Positions 5,824 through 10,349 are shown, counted from the first letter of the stretch. The stretch is DNA of 50,203 nucleotides from a virus (IMGVR_UViG_3300045283_000223:1-50203); one strand, 5' to 3'. Notes: a model not told the origin generated them from the letters alone. Program-made: numbers and translations.

Positions 5824-6057
5824 ATGACCTTCAAGCGATATCGACGAACGCAGATTGCCGAGATGCGTCCGTATCAACCAGATGAGATCCTCGACCTATC
5901 TGCTATCTCCATCTCTGCCGAGGACGTGAAGGCCGGCTCACCCAAAGTCGGTGACATGATCGCACGCAACCCCAAGAACCATCTCGATCAGTGGCTGGTT
6001 GCGTGGCAGTACTTCAATGACAACTTCGAACCGACCGGCGAGGACTGCTGGGATTAA
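5824..6057 (+). CDS. Conserved small phage protein (MRPY / GDMIARNP motif)
   Basis: 77 aa with the motifs MRPYQPDE, ISISAEDVKAGSPKVGDMIARNP and DQWLVAWQYFNDNFEP. This is a pattern I associate with a widespread small podovirus and siphovirus protein of unknown function. It starts five bases after the OB-like gene. The strong hairpin terminator at 6068-6097 follows its stop by ten bases, so it ends a transcription unit. Confidence 0.8.
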   Translation: MTFKRYRRTQIAEMRPYQPDEILDLSAISISAEDVKAGSPKVGDMIARNPKNHLDQWLVAWQYFNDNFEPTGEDCWD

Positions 6058-6067
6058 CCTTTCCTCA

Positions 6068-6097
6068 CCCGGGCGCAAATGCCCGGGCCTTTTCTTC
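6068..6097 (+). terminator. Rho-independent terminator
   Basis: A perfect 7-bp GC stem, CCCGGGC (6068-6074) and GCCCGGG (6081-6087), has a six-base loop and is followed by CCTTTTCTT. It is the best terminator in the window. It separates the recombination genes from the DUF3310/polymerase genes, so the latter depend on readthrough or another promoter. Confidence 0.88.
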
Positions 6098-6109
6098 TGG
6101 AGCCCACAA

Positions 6110-6505
6110 ATGGACATCACCACCCCACTATTCAACGTGAACCTACTCGAATTGGAAGATCAGGAGGCCGCCTATGAAGCCGAAGCATATGCCCCCACTC
6201 GATCGCGCACTGGCCAAACGGGCCTGGGTGGAAGGCCTATCAATCGGCTCCATTGCGAGGGCACTAAATCGGGACCACCGCACGATCTCCCGATTGATTC
6301 GCCAGACTACATCAACCACCCACCACACTACAACGCTCACCCCTCCGGCGTCGAGTGCATCACCATTACGGAATGGATGAACTTCAACCTTGGCAATGCC
6401 ATGAAATACATCTGGCGCGCGAATGACAAGGGCGCAACTATCGAGGACCTGAAGAAGGCTCAGTGGTATCTCGCACGGGAGATCGATCGATTGGGTCGAC
6501 TGTGA
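6110..6505 (+). CDS. DUF3310 (SaV-like) protein with N-terminal extension
   Basis: 131 aa. The DUF3310 domain occupies the C-terminal half: INHPPHYN, then GVECITITEWM, then LGNAMKYIWRANDKG and LKKAQWYLAREI. The start is ATG 6110 with GGAG eight bases upstream. Residues about 22-90 are encoded by DNA that also encodes an HTH protein in another frame (6174-6380). The function of DUF3310 is unsettled; some are annotated as nucleotide kinase-like. The stop is coupled to the UDG gene by GTGA. Confidence 0.8.
   Translation: MDITTPLFNVNLLELEDQEAAYEAEAYAPTRSRTGQTGLGGRPINRLHCEGTKSGPPHDLPIDSPDYINHPPHYNAHPSGVECITITEWMNFNLGNAMKYIWRANDKGATIEDLKKAQWYLAREIDRLGRL
6174..6380 (+). CDS. Helix-turn-helix protein overlapping the DUF3310 gene
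   Basis: 68 aa in a different frame, entirely inside the DUF3310 reading frame. Residues 6-42 form a clear IS30/HTH_38-like HTH (ALAKRAWVEGLSIGSIAR then ALNRDHRTISRLIRQ). AGGAGG lies six bases before the ATG, a better ribosome site than that of the surrounding gene. The last 25 residues are Thr/Pro/Ser-rich and lie over the conserved DUF3310 motif, so they look unconstrained. It is either a true nested regulator or the first half of a frameshifted HTH-DUF3310 fusion. Confidence 0.72.
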   Translation: MKPKHMPPLDRALAKRAWVEGLSIGSIARALNRDHRTISRLIRQTTSTTHHTTTLTPPASSASPLRNG

Positions 6506-7605
6506 CAAAGCCAATACTATTACTTGGAGAAAGTTGGGGCGAATATGAATCCCGTATCCGCTCCGCCTTCGTCGGCCCTTCGGGAATCGAACTCCTAAGG
6601 ATGCTCAACGATGCCGGAATTATCCACCTCACCTTTGCTGATCGTGACTACATCAACGAATTCTATCGATTCGGAGACCCTCGTGCAGTTGATTCGGTCT
6701 GGGGATTACATCCTGAGGTACGAAGGTCCAACGTGTTCAACATACACCCCCCTGCAAATCGACTCGAACACTTCTGCGGGCCGCGTGACCAAGGGATCAT
6801 TGGATGGGGTCCACTTCTCGCCGGCAAATACGTCCGGAGAGAGTTCGAGCCAGAGCTTGACCGGCTCGCTGACGAGATTCTGGGCATGGACCCTGATCTT
6901 ATCATCGCTCTCGGTAATACTGCTCTCTGGGCTCTTACTGGTCGAACGGGGGTTACCAAACTACGGGGTACCACTATGCTTAGCAGCCATACTGCTAGCG
7001 GCTATAAGTTGCTTCCTACCTATCATCCTGCCGCCGTCCTGCGGGAATGGCCCCACCGACCGACCACCGTCAGGGACCTGATCAAGGCCGGCCGCGAATC
7101 CGCCTTCCCCGAGATCCGCCGGCCGAAGTGTGAGATTTGGATCGAACCAACCCTGGAAGACATAAGGACCTTCATCGATGCACACATCAGAAACTGCGCC
7201 ATTCTTTCTGTCGACATTGAAACAAGCGGATCACGAATTACTTGCATTGGGTTTGCTCCATCACCAACAATTGGAATCGTCATTCCGTTTGATGACGAGC
7301 GTGCAGTTGGACGAAGCTATTGGCCGAATCAATCGGATGAGCGAAGTGCTTGGGAGCTTATACGCGGAGTGTTGGAATGTGATTCAATCCGGAAACTTTT
7401 CCAAAATGGGTTGTACGACATCGCCTTCCTCTGGCGGGCGTATGGGATCGGAGTGATGGGAGCAGTGCATGATACCATGCTCCTGTCGCACGCCCTGCAA
7501 CCAGAGTCCCTCAAGGGCCTTGGCTACCTCGGCTCGATCTACACCGATCACGGGGCTTGGAAATCAGAACGGAAACACGTGGAGACTATTGGGAGGGATA
7601 AGTGA
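6502..7605 (+). CDS. Uracil-DNA glycosylase fused to the first part of a PolA 3'-5' exonuclease
   Basis: 367 aa from GTG 6502 (GTGA overlap). Residues 1-190 form a UDG family 4/5-like domain: LLLGESWGEYE, then LIIALGNTALWALTG, then LLPTYHPAAVLRE with the His-Pro motif. Residues 230-360 carry Exo I (SVDIETSG, Asp about 238) and Exo II (NGLYDIAF, Asp about 306) of a DnaQ-fold proofreading domain. Exo III is missing and lies at the start of the separate polymerase gene (7721). The pair must associate to make a complete exonuclease. UDG might remove uracil during replication or sense it; this is inference. Confidence 0.85.
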   Translation: MTKPILLLGESWGEYESRIRSAFVGPSGIELLRMLNDAGIIHLTFADRDYINEFYRFGDPRAVDSVWGLHPEVRRSNVFNIHPPANRLEHFCGPRDQGIIGWGPLLAGKYVRREFEPELDRLADEILGMDPDLIIALGNTALWALTGRTGVTKLRGTTMLSSHTASGYKLLPTYHPAAVLREWPHRPTTVRDLIKAGRESAFPEIRRPKCEIWIEPTLEDIRTFIDAHIRNCAILSVDIETSGSRITCIGFAPSPTIGIVIPFDDERAVGRSYWPNQSDERSAWELIRGVLECDSIRKLFQNGLYDIAFLWRAYGIGVMGAVHDTMLLSHALQPESLKGLGYLGSIYTDHGAWKSERKHVETIGRDK

Positions 7606-7721
7606 ACGACGATGAACGTATCACCAAATTAGCGAAAGCAATCGATTCATTACAGGCTCCTTTATGGGCTCTTGTAGCAATAACATACTTCATTATGCTT
7701 GCATCTTGTGTTCACCACTAA
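7602..7721 (+). CDS. 39-aa single-pass membrane ORF lying inside the split polymerase
   Basis: GTG start in a GTGA overlap with the UDG-exo stop, and TAATG overlap with the polymerase start. The product has a charged N-terminus (VNDDERITKLAKAIDS) and one hydrophobic helix (PLWALVAITYFIMLASCV). The DNA is visibly more AT-rich than its flanks. It sits exactly between Exo II and Exo III of the polymerase exonuclease. Perfect coupling on both sides suggests it is translated. The function is unknown; tethering replication to the membrane is speculation. Confidence 0.6.
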   Translation: MNDDERITKLAKAIDSLQAPLWALVAITYFIMLASCVHH

Positions 7722-9232
7722 TGGCCCGCATAATCCGCACCGATATTTCAACCCCAGCCGATTTCACGAACCAGTGGGAAAGGGACCAAGTCTACAACGG
7801 CCTCGACTGTTGCGTTACCGCCGAATGCCTGGAGGCAATGCTTCCCCAACTCGACGCGCAGACCCAGGCGACCTATGACTTTAGCCGTGCCCTACAAGGG
7901 CCAGCATTGGAGATGAGGTTGCGAGGGGTCCTTGTCGACCCTATTCGCAAAGCCGAAGTCATAGACGAGTTTTATGAGAAGATCGAAATTCTCGAGCGCA
8001 ACCTTGAACGTATCGTGCTGGAGGGCGTTGGCATGGCAGGGTTCAACTGGCGATCGAACCCGGATCTTCAGACCTTGTTCTACGACCGACTGCAAATCCC
8101 CGTCATCAAACGCCAGGGTCGTCCTACCGTCGATCGCACCGCGCGGGAGAAGATGGAAACCTACACCATCGCCCGCCCGATCCTCTCCCACATCAACGCC
8201 ATGGCCGAACTCGGCAAGAAGATTTCGGTTCTCAAAACGGAGATAGACCCAGATGGACGAGTGCGAACCAGCTACAACATCGCCGGTACTGATACGGGTC
8301 GTTTCAGTTCCTCTTTCTCAGAATTTGGTACGGGTGGTAACTTACAGAACGTTGAAGAAAGCCTGCGCAGTATCTTCATCGCCGACCCTGGATACAAATT
8401 CGCCAAGTGCGACGCCAAGTCCGGTGAATCCTTCATCGTCGGCGCGATAGAATGGAACCTGTTCGATGACCCAGCTTACCTCGAAGCCTGTGCTTCTGGA
8501 GACCCTCATACAGCAGTTGCTCGAATTTGTTGGCCAACCCTGGGATGGACCGGAGATCTTAAAAGAGATAAACACATTGCGGAGCAGCCCTACTATCGAC
8601 ATTACACTTACCGTTTCATGTGCAAGAAACTCGGACACGGTTCAAATTACGGGGGAAAACCTGACACTCTCGCCGCACAGACCAAACTTCCAATTGAGGT
8701 TGTTATCGCCTTCCAGCCCAAGTACTTCGCCGCCTTCCCCGGACATCAGCAGTGGCAGCGATGGGTCGAGAACGAGATCACGAAGCGGGGGGTACTTACA
8801 TCTCTCACCGGAAGAAAGCGGTGGTTCTGGGGACGACGAACAGATGCAGATACCATTCGCGCCGCGATAGCATTCGATCCCCAAGGATCCCTCGCCGATA
8901 TCGTGAACACCGCCATGCTCAACATCTGGCGGAAGCATTACTGCATCATCTCCATGCACGACCACGACGCGCTGACATTCATGTATCCCGAACATCTCGA
9001 ATCCTCCATCCTACCCCGCATCATGGCAGACCTCCCCATCCCAATCCCCCTCAAAAACGGTCGCACGCTACAAATCCCCTACGACTGCAAGGTCGGCTGG
9101 AATAAAGGTGACTATGATGCATCAACGAATCCTGAAGGGCTCAGGGACTGGGACCCAGCCGTTGGCGACAACCGAACCCGTGCGCCGCAAGCTGGAATCC
9201 TGGATCGAGTCATTCGTCGAACATACGGATAA
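7721..9232 (+). CDS. DNA polymerase, family A (exonuclease split off)
   Basis: 503 aa from ATG 7721. The N-terminus carries the orphan Exo III motif YNGLD (Tyr 25, Asp 29). Motif A is KCDAKSGES (Asp 231, with Glu five positions later as in DYSQIE). Motif B is RFMCKK and GHGSNYGG, with Arg 298, Lys 302 and Tyr 310. The residue aligned with E. coli Phe762 is His 306. Motif C is SMHDHD (His 413, Asp 414), with His in place of the usual Glu after HD. TGRFSSSFSEFGTGGNLQNV is the conserved palm entry. It makes the phage DNA together with the UDG-exo protein. Its 3' end overlaps the AAA gene by about 119 bp. Confidence 0.92.
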   Translation: MARIIRTDISTPADFTNQWERDQVYNGLDCCVTAECLEAMLPQLDAQTQATYDFSRALQGPALEMRLRGVLVDPIRKAEVIDEFYEKIEILERNLERIVLEGVGMAGFNWRSNPDLQTLFYDRLQIPVIKRQGRPTVDRTAREKMETYTIARPILSHINAMAELGKKISVLKTEIDPDGRVRTSYNIAGTDTGRFSSSFSEFGTGGNLQNVEESLRSIFIADPGYKFAKCDAKSGESFIVGAIEWNLFDDPAYLEACASGDPHTAVARICWPTLGWTGDLKRDKHIAEQPYYRHYTYRFMCKKLGHGSNYGGKPDTLAAQTKLPIEVVIAFQPKYFAAFPGHQQWQRWVENEITKRGVLTSLTGRKRWFWGRRTDADTIRAAIAFDPQGSLADIVNTAMLNIWRKHYCIISMHDHDALTFMYPEHLESSILPRIMADLPIPIPLKNGRTLQIPYDCKVGWNKGDYDASTNPEGLRDWDPAVGDNRTRAPQAGILDRVIRRTYG

Positions 9233-10349
9233 TCTCGAGTCGCCTACGTTGTTCCGTAAGTGGGCGGGGATCTTTACTATCGCGGCGTGTTTGGAGATGC
9301 GGTGTTGGTTGCAAACCTCCTCTCCACTCTACCCCAACCTCTACGTCTTCATCGTCGGCCATCCCGGGGTTGGCAAGAATCGAATCATCCGCGTGGCGAA
9401 GAGGTATATGAATGAGATCCCTGAATTCCACTTTGCGCCGACATCGCTTACAGGGGCTGCTCTTGTGGATACACTGGCAGCTTCTAAGCGCTTTATCGCG
9501 CGTCTTCCTGATCCTCCGCTGGAATACTACAATACAACAATCACTGCCGAGGAACTTACAGCATTTATGCACAAGTATGATGACGAGATGGTCGGACTAT
9601 TGTCGGCGTTCTATGATCCGGATCCATATGCACAGTCGCGAAGGGGAAAGGATATCAAGATCGTCATTAAGCGACCACAAGTGAATTTGATTTCTGGGAC
9701 TACCCCCAGCAACCTGATTGGGCTAATGCCTGAATCCGCCTGGGACCAAGGGTTCACCTCCCGGGTGATCTTGGTCTTCTCGGATGAACGAATCGTAGGA
9801 GACGACTTTGCCGGCACTTCGCGCGAGATGGATGAAGATCTTACTCACGATATTAAACTCATCGGGGCCCTCTCCGGCGAGTTCCGGGTCACCCCCGACT
9901 ACCGCGACGCCGTTAACAATTGGCGTGCCCTTGGAGAGCCGCCCGTTGTTTCGCATCCGAAACTTCTACATTATAAAACGCGTCGACGGGTACACCTGTA
10001 CAAACTATCAATGGTCGCTGCGGCGGATCGTAGCGATGTACTCCTTCTCACGAAGGACGATTTCAATCGTGCTATGGGTTGGCTCTTGGAAGCCGAGAGC
10101 GCGATGCCCGATATCTTCCAGGCCGGTGGGACCGGTACTGACGCCCGTGCCATTGATGAGATCCGTCACTATATCTCGGTTGCGGACAAAGGTGATGGAG
10201 TACCTGAATTCCAGATTGTGAACTTCGCTCGGAGCCGAGTGCCGATGCACAGCATCCTGCGGGTGATCGAGATTATGACGGCGTCGGGGCAGATTACGCT
10301 GAAGGGGGTGGATAAGCGGGGGCAGCGATGGTTTAGGCCTTGCCGCTAG
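9114..10349 (+). CDS. AAA/DUF3987-like replicative helicase or primase-helicase
   Basis: About 411 aa from ATG 9114 (GTG 9108 and GTG 9180 are alternatives). Walker A is VGHPGVGKNR (residues about 86-95), a VNLISGTTPSNLIG stretch follows, and then a Trp-x-x-Gly-Phe-Thr-Ser-Arg arginine-finger-like stretch. The C-terminus is a winged-helix-like segment ending GQRWFRPCR. The pattern is that of the DUF3987/phage helicase group placed beside PolA. It overlaps the polymerase 3' end out of frame. The stop TAG shares the CTAG at 10346-10349 with the convergent late gene. Confidence 0.75.
   Translation: MMHQRILKGSGTGTQPLATTEPVRRKLESWIESFVEHTDNLESPTLFRKWAGIFTIAACLEMRCWLQTSSPLYPNLYVFIVGHPGVGKNRIIRVAKRYMNEIPEFHFAPTSLTGAALVDTLAASKRFIARLPDPPLEYYNTTITAEELTAFMHKYDDEMVGLLSAFYDPDPYAQSRRGKDIKIVIKRPQVNLISGTTPSNLIGLMPESAWDQGFTSRVILVFSDERIVGDDFAGTSREMDEDLTHDIKLIGALSGEFRVTPDYRDAVNNWRALGEPPVVSHPKLLHYKTRRRVHLYKLSMVAAADRSDVLLLTKDDFNRAMGWLLEAESAMPDIFQAGGTGTDARAIDEIRHYISVADKGDGVPEFQIVNFARSRVPMHSILRVIEIMTASGQITLKGVDKRGQRWFRPCR

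Follow-up and report, generated by a model that had tools for sequence, protein, structure and literature searches.

The locus analysed here raises the question of whether two neighbouring viral genes, which together hold the motifs of one family A DNA polymerase, encode a single enzyme made of two proteins, and when and how the polymerase gene was broken. The window, that is, the whole stretch of DNA that was analysed, is the 50,203-bp IMG/VR virus record IMGVR_UViG_3300045283_000223:1-50203.

Organization of the polymerase locus

The features of the locus and of its two neighbours are as follows.

5999–6505, + strand: DUF3310 protein, upstream neighbour (ORF call and PF11753); its stop codon and the GTG start of the UDG-exo gene overlap
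6502–7605, + strand: UDG-exo protein (subunit 1), GTG 6502 to TGA 7605, 367 aa, UDG domain and N-terminal part of the DnaQ-like 3'-5' exonuclease; 153 relatives aligned
6511–7056, + strand: UDG superfamily domain, residues 4–185, motifs GESWGEYE and HPAA (PF03167, 2.9e-11)
7213–7221, + strand: Exo I (DIET; D238, E240), invariant in 153/153
7405–7419, + strand: Exo II (N302, D306), invariant in 153/153
7602–7721, + strand: inserted 39-codon ORF, GTG 7602 to TAA 7721, 39 aa, one predicted transmembrane segment
7721–9232, + strand: polymerase (subunit 2), ATG 7721 to TAA 9232, 503 aa, Exo III and polymerase domain
7793–7807, + strand: Exo III (YNGLD; Y25, D29), on subunit 2, invariant in 153/153
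8411–8428, + strand: polymerase motif A, D231, invariant among the 153 relatives
8612–8650, + strand: polymerase motif B, R298, K302 and Y310, plus the invariant His306, which corresponds to E. coli position 762 (153-relative alignment)
8963–8968, + strand: polymerase motif C, His415-Asp416 (153-relative alignment)
9108–10349, + strand: primase/DUF3987 (phrog_14296), downstream neighbour (profile matches); it also adjoins the polymerase of the continuous-gene relatives

The UDG-exo gene, the 39-codon ORF and the polymerase gene occupy three different frames, with a GTGA overlap at the first boundary and a TAATG overlap at the second; the ORF calls thus reproduced what the sequence-only reading had described. 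Its placement of Exo I and Exo II on the UDG protein, ending at 7605, and of Exo III at the opening of the polymerase protein, starting at 7721, was also borne out, with ORFs, Pfam, phrog_17 and the alignment of 153 relatives in agreement. Subunit 1 matched the UDG family PF03167 with 44 bits and DNA_pol_A_exo1 with 23.2 bits, just below the cut-off of 23.6 (short by 0.4), and subunit 2 matched DNA_pol_A (PF00476) with 96.5 bits. The phrog_17 (DNA polymerase) profile was matched at positions 548–788 by subunit 1 and at 807–1243 by subunit 2, and the two proteins are therefore pieces of one ancestral polymerase. The polymerase of Microcystis phage Mel-JY34 was matched by the same two ORFs at residues 9–344 and 356–790. 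Exo II and Exo III are separated by the break, and the window polymerase protein begins 24 residues ahead of Exo III.

The UDG motifs GE..G..E and HP were present, with G9 conserved in 147, E10 in 144, H175 in 149 and P176 in all of the 153 relatives. The relatives of this domain in the PDB were mostly family 4 UDGs and UdgX. The four-Cys ligand set of the 4Fe-4S cluster was not found in residues 1–200 of the window protein, which hold one Cys, and the domain is therefore called UDG-like, not family 4.

At the equivalent of E. coli position 762, where the window has His306 (8636–8638), 153/153 split relatives have His, and the continuous sister group also has His there where the motif was readable. 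A screen of virome PolA sequences retained only Phe, Leu or Tyr at this position (PMC9069017), and the His762 group was probably left out of it. At 9108–9232 the start of the primase ORF may fall inside the polymerase gene, in another frame and with an overlap of up to about 120 nt, an arrangement perhaps common to many relatives.

Distribution and age of the split

Homologues with the same split, which the sequence-only reading had proposed to look for in related metagenomic phages, were found in number. The relatives, taken from IMG/VR, confirmed by tblastn and with both halves aligned, were reduced to 161 distinct junctions; the break site was the same in 161/161, and no continuous gene was present in the split clade. 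An isolate, Caulobacter phage Kuura (OQ067476), is also a member of this clade, with the UDG-exo gene Kuura_029, two inserted ORFs (028 and 027) and the polymerase gene Kuura_026. In its description one half is named as a DNA polymerase and the other is a 'hypothetical protein', and the split is unmentioned (PMC9959647). A search of bacterial genomes for prophage relatives gave 14 pattern matches, none of which was confirmed.

In a 97-row IQ-TREE tree, obtained by a quick search and with several long outgroup branches, all 75 split rows fell on one side of a single branch (SH-aLRT 100), with one change of state. One clade and one state change favour a single old event over many recent ones; the split is therefore old and probably a single event.

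One-gene UDG-exo-pol polymerases were found in the sister group, comprising Mel-JY34, MW202489 and some 15 to 20 IMG/VR contigs, and also further out. The DUF3987/phrog_14296 primase is annotated downstream of the continuous gene as well, in Mel-JY34 and vir526. The occurrence of a continuous gene with identical neighbours in relatives had been regarded beforehand as evidence against the split; such relatives do exist, in the distant sister group only, and they date the split and do not refute it.

Probable assembly of the two proteins

The catalytic residues are invariant in both halves: Exo I D/E, Exo II N/D, Exo III Y/D, motif A D (D231) and motif B R/K (R298 and K302) were each retained in 153/153 aligned relatives, and motif C D416 in 152/153. 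The pairwise identities of the two halves were correlated, with r = 0.91 over 145 loci. From these alignments, it is very probable that two proteins together form a single proofreading site.

Relative L004, which is insert-free and has a single in-frame TAG between the halves, was modelled with AlphaFold2 as a read-through chain of 865 residues; the model represents one chain, not two, and its alignment included continuous-gene homologues. The pLDDT was 93.2 and the pTM 0.89, and the sole segment below 50 was residues 353–363, i.e. the junction. The model was superposed across the junction on the Bacillus Pol I large fragment 4f2r_A (Z 34.7, rmsd 3.2, 536 aligned, model residues 206–838) and on Pol I of phage G20c, 7r0k_B (Z 33.6, rmsd 3.6, 565 aligned). 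As predicted in this model, the joined halves have the canonical Pol I fold, and the split point is the only disordered stretch. The VIA-align rows cover model residues 202–839 and barely test the UDG part, so that the UDG domain is assigned from sequence.

Between the last WK and Exo III the linker measures 16–23 residues in continuous genes of the sister group, versus a median of 35 in split ones (typically 13 + 22). Subunit 1 has an end of its own of about 13 residues past the last WK, and subunit 2 one of about 22 ahead of Exo III, often M-K/R-I-I-x-T. These extra ends possibly serve docking, and the M-K/R-I-I-x-T end as the interface would be a guess. Assembly in trans appears to be the likeliest reading of alignments and model; the option raised by the sequence-only reading that the split is ancient and that the UDG-exo subunit works in trans is well supported by the single origin in the tree, the common break site and the invariant catalytic residues of both halves.

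Gene gain and loss at the junction

The junction was shorter than 30 bp in 43 of the 161 cases, mostly as ATGA or TAATG overlaps, and in the other 118 the halves are separated by further ORFs over 35 bp to 4.6 kb. Inserts are nearly all ORF (median coverage 1.01), and the ORFs commonly overlap both neighbours. Matches to endonuclease families were obtained for 17 insert ORFs: HNH_3 (11), Endonuclease_7 (4) and LAGLIDADG_3 (2); the match of L019 is below the cut-off, but the protein is 41% identical to that of L031. These families are known from homing genes, and the junction endonuclease genes are likely to be mobile, with the qualification that family membership alone does not prove homing. 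The majority of inserts are not endonucleases, being nucleoside deoxyribosyltransferase-like, MazG-like, zinc-ribbon or membrane proteins, or of no assigned family.

Close relatives differ at this site. An HNH gene present in L127 is absent from its near-twin L128 (polymerases 99% identical); an HNH gene that is whole in L078 survives in its sister L065 as a 38-aa remnant with an internal deletion; the sisters L019 and L024 carry LAGLIDADG and endonuclease VII genes; and L070, L071, L074 and L076 (polymerases 94–96%) have three different small ORFs or none. Such comparisons indicate that unrelated genes enter and leave the junction quickly. Inserts of at least 60 bp were present in 106/147 loci at the exo-pol junction versus 12/147 at the pol-primase junction, a contrast that is weak because polymerase and primase genes mostly overlap or abut. 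The junction upstream of the UDG-exo gene was also variable (8/16 loci). A unique hotspot at the exo-pol junction was therefore rejected; this junction is permissive for insertion, and not uniquely so.

The 39-codon ORF of the window, the only insert in its junction, where no endonuclease is present, has no counterpart in the closest relatives, L004 and L082/L083, all of which are split. The simplest reading is thus that it arrived late, when the gene was already split, and it was discarded as the cause of the split. Its product, judging from the sequence, is perhaps a small membrane protein; an assignment to DUF6771 was rejected (18.2 bits, below the cut-off of 23.7). The proposal of the sequence-only reading that the segment is the scar of a mobile element holds in part: likely mobile endonuclease genes do enter the junction in relatives, but the window ORF entered a gene that was already split.

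Very large inserts, consisting of ORF chains, were observed in L261 (6243–10546, 4.6 kb) and L236 (6128–8898, 2.8 kb), and a DNA ligase domain is among the Pfam matches of the inserts taken together. Related inserts of 81–93 aa with hydrophobic ends recur in one subgroup, L124–L141, about 80 bp past the UDG-exo stop. Together with the inserts of L032 and L062 and the 39-aa ORF of the window, they give a hint of small membrane proteins in the replication operon.

Origin of the break and alternative explanations

The explanation that we hold with considerable confidence is an old, probably single break in a UDG-exo-pol polymerase. In this view, a family A replicative polymerase of this type was split early in the evolution of the phage clade, most likely in a single event, at the loop that connects Exo II with Exo III, and each half now has a short end of its own. 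Both proteins would be produced from one tightly packed operon, presumably by translational coupling, and would associate without covalent linkage to form a Pol I-like enzyme that proofreads, its proofreading site lying across the interface. The break is now permissive, with genes coming and going and three kinds of endonuclease gene entering and decaying.

Other readings of the two genes were weighed against this one. Subunit 2 might be a solo polymerase devoid of exonuclease, the UDG-exo protein having a different function, for instance in recognizing uracil or binding DNA. The polymerase half is indeed complete without subunit 1, and the UDG motifs, including H175 and P176, are conserved as well; this reading is nevertheless unlikely, as the invariant Exo III Tyr and Asp are on subunit 2 while the equally invariant Exo I and Exo II are on subunit 1, and the two halves evolve in step. 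To our knowledge, Exo III has no role without Exo I and Exo II, and its retention on subunit 2 would thus be left unexplained. Joining of the halves by frameshift, stop readthrough or RNA splicing, by which the split would be merely apparent, is very improbable. In 5 of the 43 short junctions, including L004, L001 and L002, the two halves share a frame and one stop separates them, but all three stop codons end the exo gene (TGA 92, TAA 51, TAG 18), none of 21 ATGA junctions has a nearby XXXYYYZ heptamer, and ORFs of up to several kb lie between the halves in 118 junctions. The search for introns gave no Rfam intron family at E ≤ 1 in window positions 6300–9400 and none at gathering level in 18 loci, and the 115-bp gap of the window is filled by an ORF, which argues against a group I intron; the frameshift or readthrough product considered in the sequence-only reading was consequently set aside. 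An assembly error, recent lesion or pseudogene in this contig alone can be practically dismissed: the same junction is found in 161 cases in other contigs and in an isolated phage, with intact frames and invariant active sites.

As to what made the old break, an endonuclease is plausible, with about an even chance; endonuclease gain and decay were observed at an already split site, the origin being deeper than the sample. Almost as probable, and compatible with the old single break preferred here, is a point change that gave a stop and a restart (ATGA), endonucleases and other genes being later opportunists. Bare ATGA overlaps at many junctions and the predominance of other genes among the inserts point in this direction, but the longer linker of the split genes (about 35 versus 16–23 residues) suggests that sequence was added at the break, and endonuclease genes recur at the junction. 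It is doubtful that the split has been kept as useful, through an exchangeable proofreading/UDG subunit that sets the ratio of proofreading to non-proofreading enzyme and intervening genes that tune translation of the second half.

Comparison with other broken polymerase genes

In the T4-like Aeromonas phages 25 and 44RR, gene 43, which encodes a family B polymerase, is split into 43A and 43B, separated by a seg-type homing endonuclease gene in phage 25 and by untranslated sequence in 44RR; the halves of the phage 25 polymerase co-purify and show polymerase activity (PMC2988022). A replicative polymerase in two genes is common to both cases, whereas the group of the window has a family A polymerase with UDG, split throughout a deep clade, and 43A/43B is limited to few phages and lacks UDG. 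In Aeromonas phage Aeh1, nrdA is split in a critical region by mobE and its halves reassemble, and mobE of T4 starts on the upstream stop, UAAUGA (PMC2988022). An essential phage enzyme is likewise broken there, but it is a ribonucleotide reductase in one phage. As in the gp43 and nrdA cases, the two ORFs of the window correspond to one continuous homologue; an endonuclease gene at the junction was found in relatives only.

The OM43 phages MEP401 and MEP402 have PolA in two ORFs with a small ORF of unknown function between them, in most genomes of the group; the exonuclease is whole and joined to the N-terminal part of the polymerase, the break lies inside the polymerase domain, and the available text of that report mentions no UDG (PMC10580990). 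A family A polymerase, two ORFs and a small ORF between them are shared with the window, in which the break is inside the exonuclease instead. The continuous UDG-exo-pol proteins of Mel-JY34, MW202489, vir526 and Lysinibacillus phage LysYB1 have the same domain order as the split clade, but in one chain of about 780–890 aa. The bacterial Pol I large fragment shares the fold across the junction and the catalytic residues, but it is a single chain with no UDG and with Phe at position 762.

Little literature was found on UDG-polymerase fusions or on split polymerases with a homing endonuclease. The architecture had been called uncommon from the sequence, a statement to be narrowed, since split phage polymerases and UDG-exo-pol fusions are already known; as far as the literature shows, what looks new is a break that falls within the proofreading active site and is fixed throughout a large clade, together with a direct view of endonuclease genes being gained and decaying there. 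If the explanation preferred here is true, a replicative polymerase with a proofreading site completed by a second protein is fixed across a large phage clade and not in one odd phage. The clade would then be a natural repeated experiment on the tolerance of an essential enzyme to cutting and on the arrival and departure of endonuclease genes at the junction, as well as a source of two-part Pol I enzymes in which proofreading is optional.

Further broken genes were observed in the course of the comparison. The gene is broken between the UDG and exonuclease domains in L114 (1413–1668) and L120 (4696–4951), both of the continuous sister group. It is broken just ahead of polymerase motif A, a site near the OM43-phage kind, in L094 (5455–6009, Vibrio phage VS-ABTNL-3), L116 (5251–5498) and L122 (5728–6588), with gaps that contain an ORF of 90–185 aa or a methyltransferase-like ORF. 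The polymerase of L264 (2987–3137, MW202554) is broken just past Exo III, both halves being annotated as DNA polymerase, and one frame of its gap resembles, by eye, an NrdR-like zinc ribbon. The family A polymerase of L265 (4686–5368, Weizmannia phage Youna2) is interrupted in motif B (RAKAVNFG, then a stop), with an ORF between the parts, and this interruption may hold an intron.
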